From the NCBI RefSeq assembly GCF_900220975.1, contig NZ_OBQD01000010.1, positions 124,001 to 188,000 on the forward strand: a stretch of 64,000 bases of DNA. The letters are read 5' to 3'. The position numbers and the translations under genes are program-made. Under the pieces are notes generated by a model. It did no database searches, was not told the DNA's origin, and saw nothing but the letters and a program-made list of their open reading frames with translations. Below, one piece after another: positions 5,226-60,260 of the stretch. Each line of letters starts with the position of its first letter. Within the stretch, counting starts at the first letter, position 1. This DNA comes from Rhizobium subbaraonis (GTDB taxonomy: Bacteria; Pseudomonadota; Alphaproteobacteria; Rhizobiales; Rhizobiaceae).

Positions 5226-6160
<935 letters not shown>

Positions 6161-6243
6161 GGCGCCATTTGCCCATAGCCGGGCGATCTGCGCAAGCCCG
6201 TCCGCGGCTCAGCGATGTCGCAAACGACGCAAGCCGTCTTCCT

Positions 6244-16551: not shown

Positions 16552-19032
16552 CTAGCCGCCGGACGACAGCGGCCCGGCGTGGCAGGAATGCAGGTCGAAG
16601 GCATGGAAGGAAGGAGCCGCCCCGTCGGCAATCGGTTCGGATGGCGTGAAGACGAGCGCCTTACGCTCGCCGGCGGTCAGGTCGAACACATTGTCGGACC
16701 AGCGGCCCGCGATACTGGCCTCCACCATCGCGTAAAGCGCCAGCCCGTGGGCAGCCGCTAACACATCGAAACTGCCATCGCTGCGCGGCGTTGCCTTCAC
16801 GTTAAGCCCCGATGGCGCAAGGTCGAGGGTCTTGTAGGCCGCCGGTGCATGGTGGCCCTCGCCACGCATGCCGTTCGAGGCCTCGAAGCTCCAGAAGAGC
16901 AGCGTCCCATCCGGCAGGTCGACCGCATCGATCGACACCAGCGTTTCGGGCCGGTCCGTCCCGCAGGCGCCGGCAACCTTTCGCAGAATCCGGCGCTCCC
17001 CGGAAAGGCTGACGACATACGTCACGAGCGCAACCTCGACCGCCTCGGGCGTGTCGTTCACCACAGAGAGATCGATCCGCAGCCCGTCCTTGGAAGGAAT
17101 GGCGGCGACCGCGACCGGCTGGAAGAACCGGCGCACCATGTAGTGCATCGCCTTCCAGCCACCGCCATGGTCGAGGCTCGACCAGGAGGCGACCGGCCAG
17201 GTGTCGTTCAGCTGCCAGTAAAGCGTGCCCATGCAATGCGGCTTGAGCGAGCGCCAGTATTCCACCGCGGTGCGGATCGCCAGCCCCTGCTGCACCTGAC
17301 TGAGATAGACGAAGCCCGGAAAATCCTTAGGAAAGCGGAACGATCGGAACATCGTTGCAGCGATCCGCTCGTTGCCGCCGGCGTTTTTCTGGTGCCACTC
17401 CATCACCGGCGAGGCGATGTTCATGTCCCTTTCGCAGGCGAAGCGTCGGATCACCGGCATGGACGTGTAGGACTGGAAGCCGAACTCCGAGCAGAAGCGC
17501 GGACGGACGGTGCGGTAGTCCTCGAACGGCTTGTTCTCGTGCCAGACCGACCAGTAGTGCATGTCGCCGGAACCGTCCGCATGCCAGGCGTCGCCGAAGT
17601 CGAGATAGCCCGAAGCCGGGCTCGATGGCCACCAGATCGCCCCCGGCGCCGCCTTCTTCATCGCAAGTTCGATCGTCCTGTTCAGCCGGTCATAGGAGAC
17701 GAGATAGCGGTCGCGGTCGCGGCGCGAGACGTCGAACCAGGTCAGCGCGCCGACGAGCTCGTTGTCGCCGCACCACAGCACGATCGAGGGGTGCGAGGAC
17801 AGCCGCCGCACCTGGTAGTCCACCTCAGCCGTGACGTTGTCGAGGAACTCCAGTGTCGAGGGATAGAGGTTGCAGGCGAACATGAAGTCCTGCCAGACCA
17901 TCAGCCCCATCTCGTCGCAGAGATCGTAGAACCAGTCCGGCTCGTAGAACCCGCCGCCCCAGACGCGGATCATGTTCATGTTGGCGTCGACTGCCGATTG
18001 CAGCAGGTCGCGCACGCCCTCCTTCGTCACGCGCGAGAACAGCGCGTCGGCGGGGATCCAGTTGGCGCCGCGGCAGAAGATCTCGCGCCCGTTGATCCGC
18101 AGCGCGAAGCGGCTTCCCGCCTCGTCGCGATCGGTCAGAAGCTCGACCCGCCGGAAGCCAACGCTGCGCGTCACGCTCTCCGTCGGAGTCTCCACTGTAA
18201 CCTGTGATACCGCCTGCTGGCCGTGGCCGGCCGGCCACCAAAAGTCCGGCTCGTCCACGTGGAAGAGATGCGTCAGCACCGTCTCGCCGGCATTCACGCC
18301 GATGTCGAGCCGCACGCGCTCGCCGTCGAGCGAGAAATGCACCGGCAGGATGCCCGGCTCCTCGGCGTGGAAGGTCGCGGTCACGTAGAGATCGACCGAA
18401 CCGTCGGCGTGGTGGAACTGCCGCGTGGTGACATGCTCGATCCGGGCGATCTCGAGCTTGCGCAGCACGATCGGCGCATAGATGCCGAGCGGCGCGATGG
18501 CGAGATTCCAGTCCCAGCCGAAATGGCATTGCGGCTTGCGCAGCATGTTGCCATTGGCGATCGGCGAGTTGCCCTCGTGCCAGGGCACGAAGAAGGGCTG
18601 CTCCGCCTGCCGGGCCGCACCCGCCGCAATCGCAGAATGGATGACCACGCGGATGGTGTTCTCGCCGGACTTGAGCGCCTCGGTAACGTCCGGCCGGTAG
18701 CGCCGGAAGCAGTTGTCGGTGTCCTGCACCAGCACCCCGTTGACATAGACCGACGCCACCGTGTCGATGCTACCGATGTCGAGATACCAGGCCGCCTCCA
18801 GCATCTCCGGCTGAACGAGGAACGTCCGCTCCATCGCCCAGTCGGCCTCCGCGACCCAACGCACGTCGAGCTCGTTGCGGCCGACATAGGGGTCGGCGAT
18901 GATTCCCGCCGCCATCAGCGCCGAATGAACGTCGCCGGGCACCCTCATGGAGGCTGCATGCGGGCCCTCCAGCATCGAGAGCTGCCAGGTGCCGCTGAGG
19001 TCAATGGCCGTGATGTCCTGTCGTGTCGTCAT
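16552..19032 (-). CDS. Glycoside hydrolase family 2 beta-mannosidase-type enzyme
   Basis: An 826-residue GH2 enzyme. It shows the sugar-binding N-domain (LSGTWQLSMLEGPHAASMRV, VPGDVHSALMAAG), the jelly-roll motif WYLDIGSIDTVASVYVNG, and a TIM barrel with the acid/base Glu in VLWCGDNEL and the nucleophile Glu in FCSEFGFQS. The order and the VPGDVHSAL motif fit the beta-mannosidase group rather than beta-galactosidase. There is no signal peptide, so it acts on imported oligosaccharides in the cytoplasm. The ATG at 19032 is preferred; in-frame starts at 19065 and 19143 would add residues that look non-conserved. It is downstream of the ABC importer genes, past a 250-base gap with a palindromic repeat. 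Confidence 0.88.
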   Translation of the reverse strand: MTTRQDITAIDLSGTWQLSMLEGPHAASMRVPGDVHSALMAAGIIADPYVGRNELDVRWVAEADWAMERTFLVQPEMLEAAWYLDIGSIDTVASVYVNGVLVQDTDNCFRRYRPDVTEALKSGENTIRVVIHSAIAAGAARQAEQPFFVPWHEGNSPIANGNMLRKPQCHFGWDWNLAIAPLGIYAPIVLRKLEIARIEHVTTRQFHHADGSVDLYVTATFHAEEPGILPVHFSLDGERVRLDIGVNAGETVLTHLFHVDEPDFWWPAGHGQQAVSQVTVETPTESVTRSVGFRRVELLTDRDEAGSRFALRINGREIFCRGANWIPADALFSRVTKEGVRDLLQSAVDANMNMIRVWGGGFYEPDWFYDLCDEMGLMVWQDFMFACNLYPSTLEFLDNVTAEVDYQVRRLSSHPSIVLWCGDNELVGALTWFDVSRRDRDRYLVSYDRLNRTIELAMKKAAPGAIWWPSSPASGYLDFGDAWHADGSGDMHYWSVWHENKPFEDYRTVRPRFCSEFGFQSYTSMPVIRRFACERDMNIASPVMEWHQKNAGGNERIAATMFRSFRFPKDFPGFVYLSQVQQGLAIRTAVEYWRSLKPHCMGTLYWQLNDTWPVASWSSLDHGGGWKAMHYMVRRFFQPVAVAAIPSKDGLRIDLSVVNDTPEAVEVALVTYVVSLSGERRILRKVAGACGTDRPETLVSIDAVDLPDGTLLFWSFEASNGMRGEGHHAPAAYKTLDLAPSGLNVKATPRSDGSFDVLAAAHGLALYAMVEASIAGRWSDNVFDLTAGERKALVFTPSEPIADGAAPSFHAFDLHSCHAGPLSSGG

Positions 19033-19185
19033 CGCTTCAGTCTCGAAAATCCTGCTTTCATCCATGATGGGGAGCGGAAGCTGCGTCCCCTTGGCGGCCG
19101 CCGCAGCCCACTCCAGCGCTCCCCCCGAGGGGAAAGGAAACATGCCCTAAACAGCGCCAACGTCTGCCGAGGCTGCCACACCCTC

Positions 19186-19245
19186 CCTTCTCCCCGCCTG
19201 CGGGGAGAAGGTGCCGGCAGGCGGATGAGGGGCTGGCACCCACAT
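19186..19245. repeat. Palindromic intergenic repeat (RIME-like)
   Basis: CCTTCTCCCCGC (19186-19197) and GCGGGGAGAAGG (19200-19211) form a perfect 12-bp palindrome, followed by GTGCCGGCAGGCGGATGAGG. This combination (a CTCCCCG palindrome next to GGATGAGGGGC) is the look of short interspersed repeats in rhizobial genomes. The same pattern recurs in reverse orientation inside cobN at 56336-56448. It lies between the ABC ATPase and GH2 genes, where it may also modulate read-through. Confidence 0.75.
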
Positions 19246-19284: not shown

Positions 19285-20376
<1,092 letters not shown>

Positions 20377-52649: not shown

Positions 52650-53039
52650 TCAATTCTCGTGTTTCGGCAGGTCGTCGTCGCAGGAAAACCAAGCGACGCG
52701 CTCGTTCCAGTACCAGTGCTGCGTCACCGAGACGCTCGTCGCATTGTCCAGCGATGCGACGTAGAGGTCGATCTCGGCGGGGCGCTCAGCCGTCTCGTAG
52801 CTCAGCGGCGAGCCGCAGTTTCCGCAAAAGCCGCGCGACACGCCCGGCGACGATGCGTAATGGCGAAGCGCCTCCCCCTCGAAGGCAACGTCGGCCTTCG
52901 CCACACAGAAGAAGCTCGTCACCGGCGACGACGTCGCCCGGCGGCAGCTCTTGCAATGGCAATGGCCGGTGCGGATGATCGGGCCTTTAACGGAAAACCG
53001 CACCGACCGGCACAGGCAGCGTCCGGAAAGCCCGTTCAT
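52650..53039 (-). CDS. GFA family (CENP-V / glutathione-dependent formaldehyde-activating-like) protein
   Basis: A 129-residue zinc-binding GFA domain protein: cysteine ligands are in GRCLCRSVRF, GHCHCKSCRRA and FCGNCGSPLSYE. The family binds zinc and in one member accelerates formation of hydroxymethylglutathione; most are uncharacterised. Its ATG overlaps the cobN stop by 4 bases and it ends 10 bases before cobO, so it is inside the cobalamin operon. No corrinoid link is known to me. Confidence 0.88.
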   Translation of the reverse strand: MNGLSGRCLCRSVRFSVKGPIIRTGHCHCKSCRRATSSPVTSFFCVAKADVAFEGEALRHYASSPGVSRGFCGNCGSPLSYETAERPAEIDLYVASLDNATSVSVTQHWYWNERVAWFSCDDDLPKHEN

Positions 53040-56000
53040 GACGCCCTCCTCTTCCCACCGATGTCCTCCAGTTCAAACCGAGCCGAATTGGAGCGGGGCG
53101 ACCATAGCCGGCGGTCGATCGCCTCCACCAGGCGATCGGACATTTCCCTCAACGCCGCAGGATTCTTCTCGGCCATGAAGCCGCGCACGCGCTCGTCCAG
53201 AATATACGCCTTGTAGACCGCCTCGAAATGGTGGTCCTTTACCGCCCCCGTCGTCGCAGCGAAGGCGAACATGAAGTCGACGGTCGCAGCCAGCTCGAAG
53301 GCGCCCTTGTAGCCGTGCCGCATCACGCCGTCGATCCACTTCGGGTTGACGACGCGGGCGCGCACGACGCGCCCGATCTCGTCCTCCAGCGTGCGCACCA
53401 CCGGCTTTTCCGGCCGCGAATGGTCATTGTGGTAGACCGTCGGCTGCCGACCGCTCACGTGCGCCGCCGCAGCCGCCATGCCGCCCTCGAACTGGTAGTA
53501 TTCGTCGCTGTCCAGAAGATCGTGCTCGCGATTGTCCTGGTTCTGGACGATCGCCTGCAGGCTTTTCATCCGCACCTCCAGCCGGTCGCGGCTGGAAACG
53601 TCCTCGCCCTCGCCGGCATAGGCATGCGCGCCCCAGGCGAGCCAGGCCTCGGCAAGATCGCCGCGGTCCTTCCACAGGCCCTCGTCCATCATCGTCTGCA
53701 GTCCAGCGCCGTAGGTCCCGGGCTTTGCGCCGAACACGCGGTAACCCGCCAAGGCCTGCGCATCGGCCGCCTGCATGCCATCACCGGCCAGCGCGGACGC
53801 CTCGGCGCGCATGCGGGCGGCGATCGGATTGTCCTCCTCGTCTTCGTCGAGCGCCCCGATCGCCCGCACCGCCCGGTCAAACAGCGCGATCTGCTCGGGA
53901 AAGGCGTCACGGAAGAAGCCGGAAATGCGCAGCGTCACGTCCACCCGCGGCCGGCGAAGCATCGCCGGCGGAATGATCTCGTAACCGGTGACCCTTCGCG
54001 ATACGGTGTCCCAAACCGGCTTCGCGCCGATCAGGGCGAGCGCCTGGGCGATGTCGTCGCCGCCGGTGCGCATGTTCGAGGTTCCCCAGGCGGTAATGCC
54101 GAACGAGGTCGGCCACTCGCCGTGGTCCTGCGCGTAGCGGGTCACCAGCAGTTCCGCCGATCTCTTGCCAAGCTCCCACGCCGCCGGCGTCGGCACCGCG
54201 CGGCTGTCGACGGAATAGAAATTCCGCCCCGTCGGCAGTACATCCGGCCGCCCCCGCGTCGGCGCGCCGGAAGGTCCGGGCTCGACGAAGCGCCCCGAAA
54301 GCCCGCGCAGCAGCGCCGCCATCTCGGCGGCCCCGCAGGCTTCGATGGAAGGGCGGATGGTCGCCTCGACCTGTGCCAGCACCGCTTTCGTGGCATTCCA
54401 TCCCTCGGGGCACGGCACCTCGCCCGACACGAGCTTCGCCGCCATCAACTCTATACGTTCAACCGTATCGCCGGCGGAGCGCCATGGGGCGTCGGACTGG
54501 GCGGCGAGGATATCGGGACACGCGCCATTCCAGGGGTCGGAAGGAACACAATCGAGGGGGTCGAAAGCGAAGGCAGGATCCGCCGCAGCCGGTGTCGTCG
54601 AAGACGGGTGCATCGGCACGTCGCCCCTGAACGCATCCGCCGCGATCGCGCGCTGCAGGCTGGCGTCGCCCCCCTCGCCGAGACCGCGCGGCACCCGCGC
54701 CAGCGCCAGCGTCAGGTCGGTCAGAAGCCGTCCCGAGGGCGAGACGCCGAAGACGTGCAGGCCGTCGCGGATCTGCATCTCCTTCAGGTCGCAGAGATAG
54801 GCGTCGAGTTTCTCGAGCGCCGCGTCCTCGCCGTCGGACTTGGCGATCCCCGCATCCTGGTCGAGCCCGATGTCGCGCACGAGATCGAGAATCTGGCGGC
54901 TCAGCAGCCGCAGTCGGCGCGGGTCGCCGCCCGAAGCGTCGTAATACTCGTCGACCAGCGCCTCCAGGTCCTTCAGCGGCCCGTAGGTCTCCGCCCGGGT
55001 CAAGGGCGGCGTCAGGTGATCAATGATGACGGCGGCAGAACGGCGCTTGGCCTGCGTGCCCTCGCCCGGATCGTTGACGATGAACGGATAGAGATGCGGC
55101 ATCGGCCCGAGCACGGCCTCCGGATAGCACGCCTCCGACAGCGCCAGCGCCTTGCCCGGCAGCCATTCGAGATTGCCGTGCTTGCCGACATGGACGACGG
55201 CATGAACGTCGCAGACCTCGCGCAGGTGGGCATAGAAGGCGAAGTAGCCGTGCGGCGGAACGAGGTCCGGCGAATGGTAGGTGTCCTTCGGATCGATGTT
55301 ATAGCCGCGCGCCGGCTGGATGCCGACCAGCGTCTCGCCGAAACGGCAGAGCGGAAGCGCGAAGACGTCGCCCGAGACGAACGGATCGGCCTCGGGCGGG
55401 CCCCAGCGCGCCGTCACCACATTCTGAATCTCTTTCGGAAGACTTCCGAAGAAGCGCCTGTATTGATTCAACGAAAGCGTCTCGCGGATCTCCCGCCCGT
55501 CGCTTGCCGCATTGGTCGGCCCCGCCATCAGGTGCGCCATCAGCGCGTCGCCGTCATCAGGCAGTTCGCCGGTCGCATAGCCCTCGCCCCGCATCGCCCG
55601 CAGGATCTCCAGCGTGCCCGCCGGCGTGTCCAGCCCGACGCCGTTGCCAAGCCGGCCGTCGCGGTTCGGATAATTGGCCATCACCAGCGCCACGCGCCGG
55701 TCGCCGGCCTGCGTGCGGCGCAGCCGTGCCCAGTTCGCAGCAAGCCTTGCGGAGTAGCCGATGCGATCCTCCACCGGCTCGAGGCTGACGATGTTGGTCT
55801 CGACCGCCGGGTCCCAGCGCGCCGCCGCCTTGAACGACACCGCCCGCGCCAGCACCCGTCCGTCCACCTCGGGCAGCGACACGTTCATGCCAAGGTCGCG
55901 CGCCGTCAGGCCCTGCCCGGATTTTTCCCAGGCCTCCCGCGACGAGCCGGAGAAAATCACCTGCAGCACCTGCGCACCAGCCTCGTCGAGCACGGTCGGC

Positions 56001-57031
56001 TTGCGGTTGGCGCCGGGCGCAGACACGGCGAAGCTCGTGGCGTTCAGCACCACATCGGGGCACGCGGCGGCGAAAGCGGCGCGGACGGTCTCGATGGATG
56101 CGGGGTCCTTCAGGCTGGAGACGAACACCGGCAGGGCGCGGACGCCCTCCGCCGAAAGCGATTCGATCAAAAGCTCCACCGGCCGCGTCTCGCCGCTCTG
56201 GACATAGGCGCGGTAGAAGCAGATGGCGACGGTGGCCGGGACGGCTCTCTCGGTGGCGATCGCGACCGCGTCATCGCCCCCGTGGTCATCCGGCAGGACA
56301 GAGGTGAGCGCCAGAGCTGGAGCACCTAGGTGCAGAAGCCCCTCATCCGCCCTTCGGGCACCGTCTCCCCGCGAGCGGGGCGATGGGAAGCCAGCGCCGG
56401 CCGCGGACGCGCGCTCTCGCCGTTCACGGGGAGAAGGCGGGGGCGAGTGGCAAATCTCGCTCCACATCGCGATATCGACCACGCCCCGCCCCGGCCACCA
56501 GATGCCGGCCTTTTCGAGCGGCACCGCCGGCGCCGGTCGGTCGCGGCCTAAAACCAGCGCGTCGGCATAGGCGAGGAAGCGGCCGGCATTTTCCGCGCCG
56601 CCCTCGTTCAAATAGGACCAGAACCGCAGCCGGTCCTCGTCCGCAATGCGGTTGAACGGCGCGATGCCCTCGTCCGGCCGATCGTCGCCGGGCAGCGCCA
56701 CCATGAAGATGTCGTTTGCAACCGCCGTCGCATGCAGCGCCTCGAGCACGTAGCGGAAATAGCTGGCGCCCCCGAGCGCGCGCACGACGATCAGCCGCGC
56801 ATGCCGCGCGGTCCGCTCCACATAGGTATCGACCGACATCGGATGGGCCAGCGAGGCGAGGCTGGCAAGCCGCAGCCGCGTGTCCGTCTTGCGGCCGCGA
56901 TGTGCTGCGGCGATCGACGCCAGTTCCGTGTCCGCGGCGGAGAGAAACAGCACCTCCCCCGGCGTCTGGCCGAGATCGATCGCCTCCTTGCCGTCGGCGA
57001 TCGTGCCCTTCTGGGCTAGGAGCAGGTGCAT
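53036..57031 (-). CDS. cobN: Cobaltochelatase large subunit CobN, with an inserted repeat
   Basis: CobN is the large subunit of the aerobic ATP-dependent cobaltochelatase (with CobS and CobT, not in this window) that inserts Co2+ into hydrogenobyrinate a,c-diamide. The 1331-residue product shows family stretches such as YHSPDLVPPHGYFAFYAHLR, HVGKHGNLEWLPGK and GITAWGTSNMRTGGDDIAQA. It is longer than the ~1270 I expect. Residues ~195-232 (ICHSPPPSPRERRERAS and beyond) are low-complexity, Arg/Ser/Pro-rich and encoded by a palindromic repeat at 56336-56448, while flanking parts IWWPGRGVVDIAMW and ICFYRAYVQSGETRPV look normal. GGGAGGG precedes the ATG. Confidence 0.94.
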   Translation of the reverse strand: MHLLLAQKGTIADGKEAIDLGQTPGEVLFLSAADTELASIAAAHRGRKTDTRLRLASLASLAHPMSVDTYVERTARHARLIVVRALGGASYFRYVLEALHATAVANDIFMVALPGDDRPDEGIAPFNRIADEDRLRFWSYLNEGGAENAGRFLAYADALVLGRDRPAPAVPLEKAGIWWPGRGVVDIAMWSEICHSPPPSPRERRERASAAGAGFPSPRSRGDGARRADEGLLHLGAPALALTSVLPDDHGGDDAVAIATERAVPATVAICFYRAYVQSGETRPVELLIESLSAEGVRALPVFVSSLKDPASIETVRAAFAAACPDVVLNATSFAVSAPGANRKPTVLDEAGAQVLQVIFSGSSREAWEKSGQGLTARDLGMNVSLPEVDGRVLARAVSFKAAARWDPAVETNIVSLEPVEDRIGYSARLAANWARLRRTQAGDRRVALVMANYPNRDGRLGNGVGLDTPAGTLEILRAMRGEGYATGELPDDGDALMAHLMAGPTNAASDGREIRETLSLNQYRRFFGSLPKEIQNVVTARWGPPEADPFVSGDVFALPLCRFGETLVGIQPARGYNIDPKDTYHSPDLVPPHGYFAFYAHLREVCDVHAVVHVGKHGNLEWLPGKALALSEACYPEAVLGPMPHLYPFIVNDPGEGTQAKRRSAAVIIDHLTPPLTRAETYGPLKDLEALVDEYYDASGGDPRRLRLLSRQILDLVRDIGLDQDAGIAKSDGEDAALEKLDAYLCDLKEMQIRDGLHVFGVSPSGRLLTDLTLALARVPRGLGEGGDASLQRAIAADAFRGDVPMHPSSTTPAAADPAFAFDPLDCVPSDPWNGACPDILAAQSDAPWRSAGDTVERIELMAAKLVSGEVPCPEGWNATKAVLAQVEATIRPSIEACGAAEMAALLRGLSGRFVEPGPSGAPTRGRPDVLPTGRNFYSVDSRAVPTPAAWELGKRSAELLVTRYAQDHGEWPTSFGITAWGTSNMRTGGDDIAQALALIGAKPVWDTVSRRVTGYEIIPPAMLRRPRVDVTLRISGFFRDAFPEQIALFDRAVRAIGALDEDEEDNPIAARMRAEASALAGDGMQAADAQALAGYRVFGAKPGTYGAGLQTMMDEGLWKDRGDLAEAWLAWGAHAYAGEGEDVSSRDRLEVRMKSLQAIVQNQDNREHDLLDSDEYYQFEGGMAAAAAHVSGRQPTVYHNDHSRPEKPVVRTLEDEIGRVVRARVVNPKWIDGVMRHGYKGAFELAATVDFMFAFAATTGAVKDHHFEAVYKAYILDERVRGFMAEKNPAALREMSDRLVEAIDRRLWSPRSNSARFELEDIGGKRRAS
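56336..56448. repeat. RIME-like palindromic element inside cobN
   Basis: The plus strand reads GCCCCTCATCCGCCCTTCGG, then GGCACCGTCTCCCCG, a CTCCCCGCGAGCGGGG palindrome, and at the other end a GTTCACGGGGAGAAGG half. The first part matches the reverse complement of the intergenic repeat at 19186-19232. It lies within the cobN frame without breaking it. Ends are estimated. Confidence 0.75.
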
Positions 57032-59807: not shown

Positions 59808-59861
59808 GACAACCTCCGTGCTGGCACGGGGAACATCCCCAGAATCGGGCAAAATGCCCTT

Positions 59862-60140
59862 ATTGGCCGGCAGGTCTCCTGGCTCGCAGCGTCGGGCGCT
59901 ATTGCGCCGGCAGCCCTCCTCGCCTTCCCGGGCAGTTCGCAGCATGAAAGGCGGACGATTCGTAGAAATAGAGGCGTCCAGACCCCGGTTCATCATGCCG
60001 CCACCCAGTGGCTTTACCGGTTCGCGCGAACCGGTCGGATAGGCCTCGCTACTCTACAGTCGCGGGGTCGGCCGTGATTGGAGCGCCCTGATTGGGTCCA
60101 CCCCGTCACGTTCCCATTTAAGCACCCGTCCATCACTGGA
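59862..60140 (-). promoter_or_regulatory. Cobalamin riboswitch upstream of cbtB
   Basis: On the minus strand the conserved cores appear in order: GGGTGC near the 5' side, AAATGGGAACGTGACGGGG, CCCCGCGACTGTAGAG, AAAGCCACTGGG (the B12 box), GGGAAGGCGAGGAGGGC and GCTGCGAGCCAGGAGACCTGCC. It ends about 55 bases before cbtB. High B12 should then shut down cobalt uptake and the following cob genes. Ends are estimated. Confidence 0.93.
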
Positions 60141-60260
60141 CCGGTGCACCATCCAATAGTGGCGATGATTATGCCTGGCCGGTGCGGAAGTCAATTGACG
60201 GGAAACGCCGCCCGCCACCCTGAAAGCGGCGTTCGAAGGCCAGATCGGGAACGGCGCGCC

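Follow-up and report, generated by a model that had tools for sequence, protein, structure and literature searches.

In-frame palindromic repeats in loops of the cobaltochelatase subunit CobN of Rhizobium subbaraonis and its relatives

The window, i.e., the whole stretch of 64,000 nucleotides of Rhizobium subbaraonis DNA that was analysed, contains the cobN gene for a subunit of the aerobic cobaltochelatase. The gene is an intact single open reading frame, stop-free across 1331 codons. The Pfam family CobN-Mg_chel (PF02514) spans residues 138-1315 of its product, and the solved CobN 9uk9 is a phmmer match with 1895 bits. The features relevant to this work are the following:

53036-57031, minus strand: cobN, aerobic cobaltochelatase subunit of 1331 amino acids (aa), assigned from the intact frame, 9uk9 and PF02514
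56231-56488, minus strand: loop 1 of CobN, residues 182-267 by the bounds of the family alignment, a probable capture site
56338-56451, minus strand: palindromic element of family A, 114 bp, CobN residues ~194-232, delimited by alignment with genomic copies and by relatives
56272-56304, minus strand: likely remnant of family B after deletion of its interior, with 56289-56304 covering 16 bases of the left end and 56272-56281 a part of the right one
54557-54646, minus strand: loop 2 of CobN, residues 796-825, repeat-free in the window and a probable second capture site in relatives
19186-19233, no strand assigned: half element of family A in the intergenic space between two genes

Two cobalamin riboswitches (Rfam RF00174) are located in the same window, at 5958-6174 and 59852-60168 (minus strand), with 91.5 and 68 bits, respectively. 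The one at 59852-60168 lies upstream of the genes leading to cobN, on the same strand.

Three families of repeats are considered here. Family A consists of two palindromes and measures about 115 bp, family B has 46-nt hairpin arms with a variable middle, and family C has arms of about 38 nt, also with a variable middle. The consensus of family A starts with GCCCCTCA and finishes with TGAGGGGC. Its ends CCCCTCA/TGAGGGG are inverted, and the arms of families B and C are inverted likewise. When aligned with the genomic copies, the stretch 56338-56451 matches family A end to end, and the frame of cobN is kept. This confirms the original prediction of a palindromic repeat in frame inside the gene and sets its bounds at 56338-56451, not 56336-56448. 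The copy in the window is worn, its first palindrome included. The intergenic partner that had been pointed out at 19186 is real and is flanked by a mannosidase-like gene (16552-19143) and an ABC-transporter ATPase gene (19285-20376), but it is a half element, ending at 19233. The expectation of further genomic copies was borne out as well, since a search of the own genome (G000) with the element found it dispersed. At least 51 match rows with E<=10 were obtained for 40 of 71 candidates scored, the query itself being counted and partial and palindrome-partner matches being counted separately, and the best non-self row had E = 3.8e-11. Among the 34 loci of this genome that were examined, 16 gave full-length matches, defined as at least 96 of the 114 query bases. 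Full rows of family A are mostly 108-122 bp long, with a few up to 139 bp.

Family A is not confined to this genome. The sister genomes G001, G003, G005 and G006 give at least 58-89 match rows each, and the genomes G002 and G004 at least 11 and at least 31, despite the repeat-free loop 1 of their CobN; 67 rows were found in S. meliloti 4H41. RIME, found dispersed in rhizobia, measures about 108 bp and contains two large palindromes, and a copy of it was placed in the chvI-chvG system. Compared by description, family A agrees with it in length, in its two palindromes and in its presence in S. meliloti 4H41, and presumably resembles RIME1. Within 3.3 kb around the sole Stimulus_sens_1 gene found in S. 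meliloti 4H41, there is no match of A, B or C with E <0.4; the reported chvI-chvG place of RIME may be a different one. Family B has at least 50-86 rows in G001, G006, G076 and G051. Among the matches listed, one row belongs to G002, two to G003, nine to G004, 50 to G006 and 86 to G001, and none at E<=1e-3 to the own genome, so that B seems to have been lost from the G000 lineage or never to have spread in it. Family C was found via long second loops that A and B left unexplained, and it is dispersed, with at least 27-61 rows per genome in the three genomes tested. A comparison of a B-bearing CobN loop with annotated plasmids returned seven records with no annotated gene under any match, three of the seven being records without annotation.

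In the protein, residues 1-188 and 264-1324 align with residues 1-188 and 199-1248 of 9uk9. The insert is absent from the latter, where the sequence alignment leaves 10 residues in place of the 75 in the window CobN. By the bounds of the family alignment, loop 1 has 86 aa, compared with a median of 21 aa in the 83 of 147 relatives that are repeat-free there. The same loop holds more than had been predicted, namely a likely remnant of a second repeat family, and another capture loop lies near residue 800. The score of the B remnant was equalled by 7 of 5000 random stretches of the window, a weak match alone. The remnant occupies the same place as the intact B in the sister genomes G006, G005 and G001, and it was accepted because of this position, not because of its score.

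The fold was modelled with AlphaFold2 for CobN residues 1-905 from a shallow alignment of 21 sequences (mean pLDDT 67.7, pTM 0.60). The model contains 14 segments with pLDDT <50, among them 199-262 and 804-820. The segment 199-262, between helix 187-195 and strand 267-273, is the longest of them and among the lowest. Some of the other 12 segments lie in conserved stretches such as 650-686. Given the shallow alignment and these low conserved parts, low pLDDT is a weak sign of disorder, especially for loop 2. The model is consistent with the earlier idea of a tolerated loop, as it places the insert in a predicted loop of low confidence.

The sample of the genus comprised seven genomes, the own one included. 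Family A is present in loop 1 of CobN in five of them (G000, G003, G006, G001 and G005). The CobN of G002 and G004 has a short loop 1 without repeats, and G080 provides another empty site. In G006, G001 and G005, a complete B element stands directly behind A, while in G000 and G003 only the apparent ends of B are seen and its inside is gone. Hence two suggestions are contradicted: the insertion is shared by relatives and not unique to one lineage, and the worn state of the window copy, together with an element common to five genomes of the genus, speaks against a recent acquisition. Sharing by close relatives, with conserved residues, had been named as a sign of native CobN sequence. The segment is indeed shared, but it is poorly conserved and absent in other relatives, and is therefore not native to CobN. 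In the cobN of G004 (L032), the conserved start reads LHLLLAQKG, and the gene therefore seemingly has a non-ATG start.

For the bacterial family, 154 CobN rows were collected: 70 of 80 genomes with a listed match at least 60% identical, four more members of the genus, and 80 named loci. Ten genomes were left out (G015, G032, G061, G082, G100, G120, G131, G137, G149 and G154), and the removal of seven duplicates left 147 distinct proteins. The named loci are the best 80 of 566 and are biased towards the query, which itself bears repeats. The 154 aligned proteins have two main internal regions of variable length, at residues 193-264 and 800-821 of the window CobN. A minor variable site at residue 509 is found in 3 of 147 proteins and is repeat-free. 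At residue 178, seven of the 147 have at least 5 aa, and B is recognisable in two (G033 and G047), whose CobN thus shows a third, rare capture site.

Repeats were called at a threshold score of 20, the top score of 1285 random stretches from the same genes being 18.5. At this threshold, A, B or C is present in loop 1 of 64 and in loop 2 of 69 of the 147 proteins; 51 carry repeats in both loops, 82 in either and 65 in neither. Carriers in either loop make up 24 of 74 proteins in the evenly drawn set plus genus members, and 58 of 73 in the named set, where they include Shinella, Ensifer/Sinorhizobium, Rhizobium, Ciceribacter and Phyllobacterium. In the CobN of S. meliloti 4H41, both A and B are absent from the loops. 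The presence of repeats follows the loop length closely: first loops of at least 45 aa have a repeat in 64 of 65 cases and shorter ones in 0 of 82, and second loops of at least 36 aa in 63 of 64 and shorter ones in 6 of 83. The loops vary in their repeat family, in its strand and in their length, and B is often present in both loops of one CobN in the same frame. The insert had been considered unusual in a cobaltochelatase; this holds as far as the literature found is concerned, but within this bacterial family, with 82 carriers among 147, it is common.

The history of the loops was traced on a FastTree gene tree of the loop-free CobN core, which is not a species tree and leaves 41 forks open among its 144 inner branches. 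On this tree, repeat presence changes at least 27 times in loop 1 and at least 32 times in loop 2, gains being inseparable from losses. When family, strand and frame are distinguished, for A and B only, the minimum rises to 44 and 45, respectively.

The reading frame of the repeats is strongly biased in family B. The B arms in CobN loops are distributed over the three frames as 79:10:0 in the plus sense and 89:2:1 in the minus sense; counted as maximal clades, which are not independent events, the figures are 59:9:0 and 64:1:1. At other loci, some of them within genes, 95 B arms were examined. In the plus sense, their three frames are open in 92, 93 and 95 arms, and stops are therefore not the cause of the plus-sense bias. 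Cysteine appears in 1 of the 95 arms in the used frame, as opposed to 83 and 81 in the others. In the minus sense, 94 arms are open in the used frame and 7 contain a cysteine there; for the other two frames, the counts are 59 and 90 open and 48 and 78 with cysteine. As one of these frames is open in just 59 of the 95 arms, stops explain part of the minus-sense bias. Over all loops matching A or B, the real frame contains 46 cysteines and the shifted frames 267 and 513. The recurrent B peptide ISPLxGEMxGRxEGG is also found, with small changes, in frames of UvrD, UvrB and FtsY. We read the frame bias of B as a filter acting at the protein level. Family A is less one-sided: the plus-sense copies of its second palindrome are distributed as 25:6:1, and the family occurs in three plus and two minus frames.

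The constraint on the loops was compared with that on the core in 12 hand-picked loop comparisons from nine genome pairs. The dN/dS ratio is 0.24-0.81 in the loops and 0.06-0.13 in the core. It stays below 1 in all 12 loop comparisons and exceeds the core value two to thirteen times, which indicates a relaxed constraint on the loops but not freedom from it. In 9 of the 12 comparisons, the loop shows less silent divergence than the core. Plain decay is insufficient to account for this, and gene conversion, later exchange or a base-pairing constraint could do so. In the pair L247/L250, dS is 0.05 for loop 2 and 0.30 for the core, and gene conversion or later exchange is possible in this loop.

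Repeats were also sought in other genes. In 81 frames, a repeat is spanned with at least 50 aa on each side. Thirty-six of these were scanned against Pfam, the remaining 45 being under 350 aa, duplicates or frames of the window; 12 of the 36 match a family and 24 match none. A phenomenon restricted to CobN is ruled out by the inserts in UvrD, UvrB and probably FtsY. In the UvrD of G001 and G076 (L129:2027-4726, L146:1994-4702), a B insert is located between the helicase domains. The UvrD linker following DEYQDTN..LLAQR has some insert in 13 of 16 proteins and none in three (L129, L146 and L252-L265, not a random sample); B or C peptides are recognisable, and the insert plainly repeat-derived, in a few only. 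The UvrB of the own genome (L002:1109-3049) has a half element of A in frame behind its last domain, and the UvrB of G001 and G076 (L135, L139) carries B in the C-terminal tail, also behind the last domain. The FtsY frame of G051 (L158:2299-4035) has B pieces ahead of the first domain, where the start codon is not fixed, and FtsY probably carries an in-frame insert of the B kind. These pieces sit within an apparently repeated stretch. In L123, L131, L144, L150, L151 and L165, the repeat stands ahead of the domain, possibly upstream of the true start.

Taken together, the loops of CobN have probably captured mobile palindromes in frame repeatedly, in a mostly neutral process in which stops, cysteines and the protein fold act as filters. 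The repeats A, B and C, dispersed in the genomes of this family, have probably moved. Copies that reached cobN would survive only when the frame was kept, no stop was introduced and the fold was undisturbed. Loop 1 (residues ~190-266, at the junction of the N-terminal part and the main body) and loop 2 (~800-822) would satisfy these demands, and repeats would have entered and left both of them on many occasions. The B copies that survive are mostly in the frame encoding a cysteine-poor peptide rich in Pro, Ser, Gly, Glu and Arg, presumably disordered, next to which the enzyme may function normally. In the lineage of the window, the capture of A and B would predate the separation from G006, G001 and G005, and the ancestor of G000 and G003 would later have lost most of B by an in-frame deletion, which appears to be the simplest order of events.

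More than tolerance may be needed to account for the concentration of almost all repeats at two sites. The repeats, or the enzyme moving them, might instead favour the DNA at both sites, or gene conversion might act between the loops, so that insertion and not selection on the protein sets the site and the frame. Such a target preference would fit the reuse of the same two sites by three families, the frequent occurrence of B in one frame in both loops of a protein, and the reduced silent divergence in 9 of 12 loop pairs. We regard it as unlikely, since A is found in three plus and two minus frames, and 24 of 36 long frames have no Pfam family, many copies thus probably lying outside conserved genes. 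Furthermore, UvrD and UvrB represent other sites with the same favoured peptide frame of B, which indicates a protein filter. The recurrent use of two sites could also reflect domestication, in which the inserts act as peptide linkers or as ribosome-slowing mRNA hairpins at a domain border of CobN. Folding of the insert in the window gave -61.8 kcal/mol for 113 nt of its sense strand (a raw value with no shuffled baseline), and all 12 loop comparisons have dN/dS <1. However, 65 of 147 CobN are repeat-free in both loops at the threshold, the loops are unlike in family, strand and length, their dN/dS surpasses the core value by a factor of two to thirteen, and the copy in the window has a worn first palindrome, which makes domestication very unlikely.

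A broader proposal is that two places in the CobN of Rhizobiaceae are permanent landing sites, at which palindromes, once captured, now serve as frame-chosen linker peptides or as mRNA hairpins timing the folding at the domain border, maintained by repeated replacement or conversion from genomic copies; we consider this quite unlikely. The slight variation in loop length seen even without repeats could suggest that the segment is native CobN sequence resembling a repeat by chance. Against it stand the near-complete alignment with full-length genomic copies, the empty sites of sisters, the random-stretch maximum of 18.5 (n=1285) below the threshold of 20, and the presence of a repeat in all but one of the long loops at each site (64 of 65 and 63 of 64). 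Native origin is refuted by the genomic copies, the empty sister sites and the random-stretch scores, and it retains virtually no probability.

Recurrent, mostly neutral capture would show that junk-like intergenic DNA can lengthen a working protein. In the GC-rich rhizobia and their relatives, two fixed sites of one enzyme have changed dozens of times, and close relatives differ in having empty, filled or worn alleles. Such alleles make it testable whether inserts are kept as harmless, by preferred DNA targets, or as helpful. The models and alignments of CobN, UvrD and UvrB in this family contain repeat-derived segments and should be used with caution.

In-frame palindromes are best known from Rickettsia. 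In the accessible text on the Rickettsia palindromic elements (RPE), these are described as about 105-150 bp long and as read in frame within conserved genes, where each gives a recurrent peptide, and one tested enzyme, an RPE-bearing guanylate kinase, retained its activity with a changed substrate affinity (PMC2229807, PMC10969869). The likeness lies in the way of working and not in the sequence: here, too, a dispersed palindrome lies inside a conserved gene with the frame kept, and relatives have an empty site (G002, G004 and G080). The difference is that other hosts and repeats are involved, and that three families fill the same two loops of one enzyme in many genera. Fusions of MITE, ERIC and YPAL, small non-autonomous repeats read in frame in several conserved genes included, are further examples (PMC2229807); they concern other repeats, and the part of that paper available tells of no recurrent filling of fixed loops. 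GTAG/CGTC REPs are reported inside genes of several species, many of them repair genes (Uvr proteins, UvrD, RecBCD), and the recB of two Xanthomonas species has an intragenic REP at about the same site (PMC3733652, in its section 15). The inserts in UvrD and UvrB fit this preference for repair genes, whereas that section names neither CobN nor a host from Rhizobiaceae. RIME and the AB and C palindromes are, in the portions of the sources at hand, dispersed intergenic repeats of Sinorhizobium and rhizobia (PMC2573895, PMC2245857). Family A is dispersed likewise, S. meliloti 4H41 included, but a copy lies inside cobN here.

In the literature searched, which left most subscription journals and supplements outside its scope, no report of palindromes in cobN was found among the papers listed. 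In-frame palindromes as such are already known from Rickettsia and several REP families, as far as the accessible accounts go. New in comparison with these systems are the many changes caused by three repeat families at two fixed sites of CobN and the marked frame bias of one of them.
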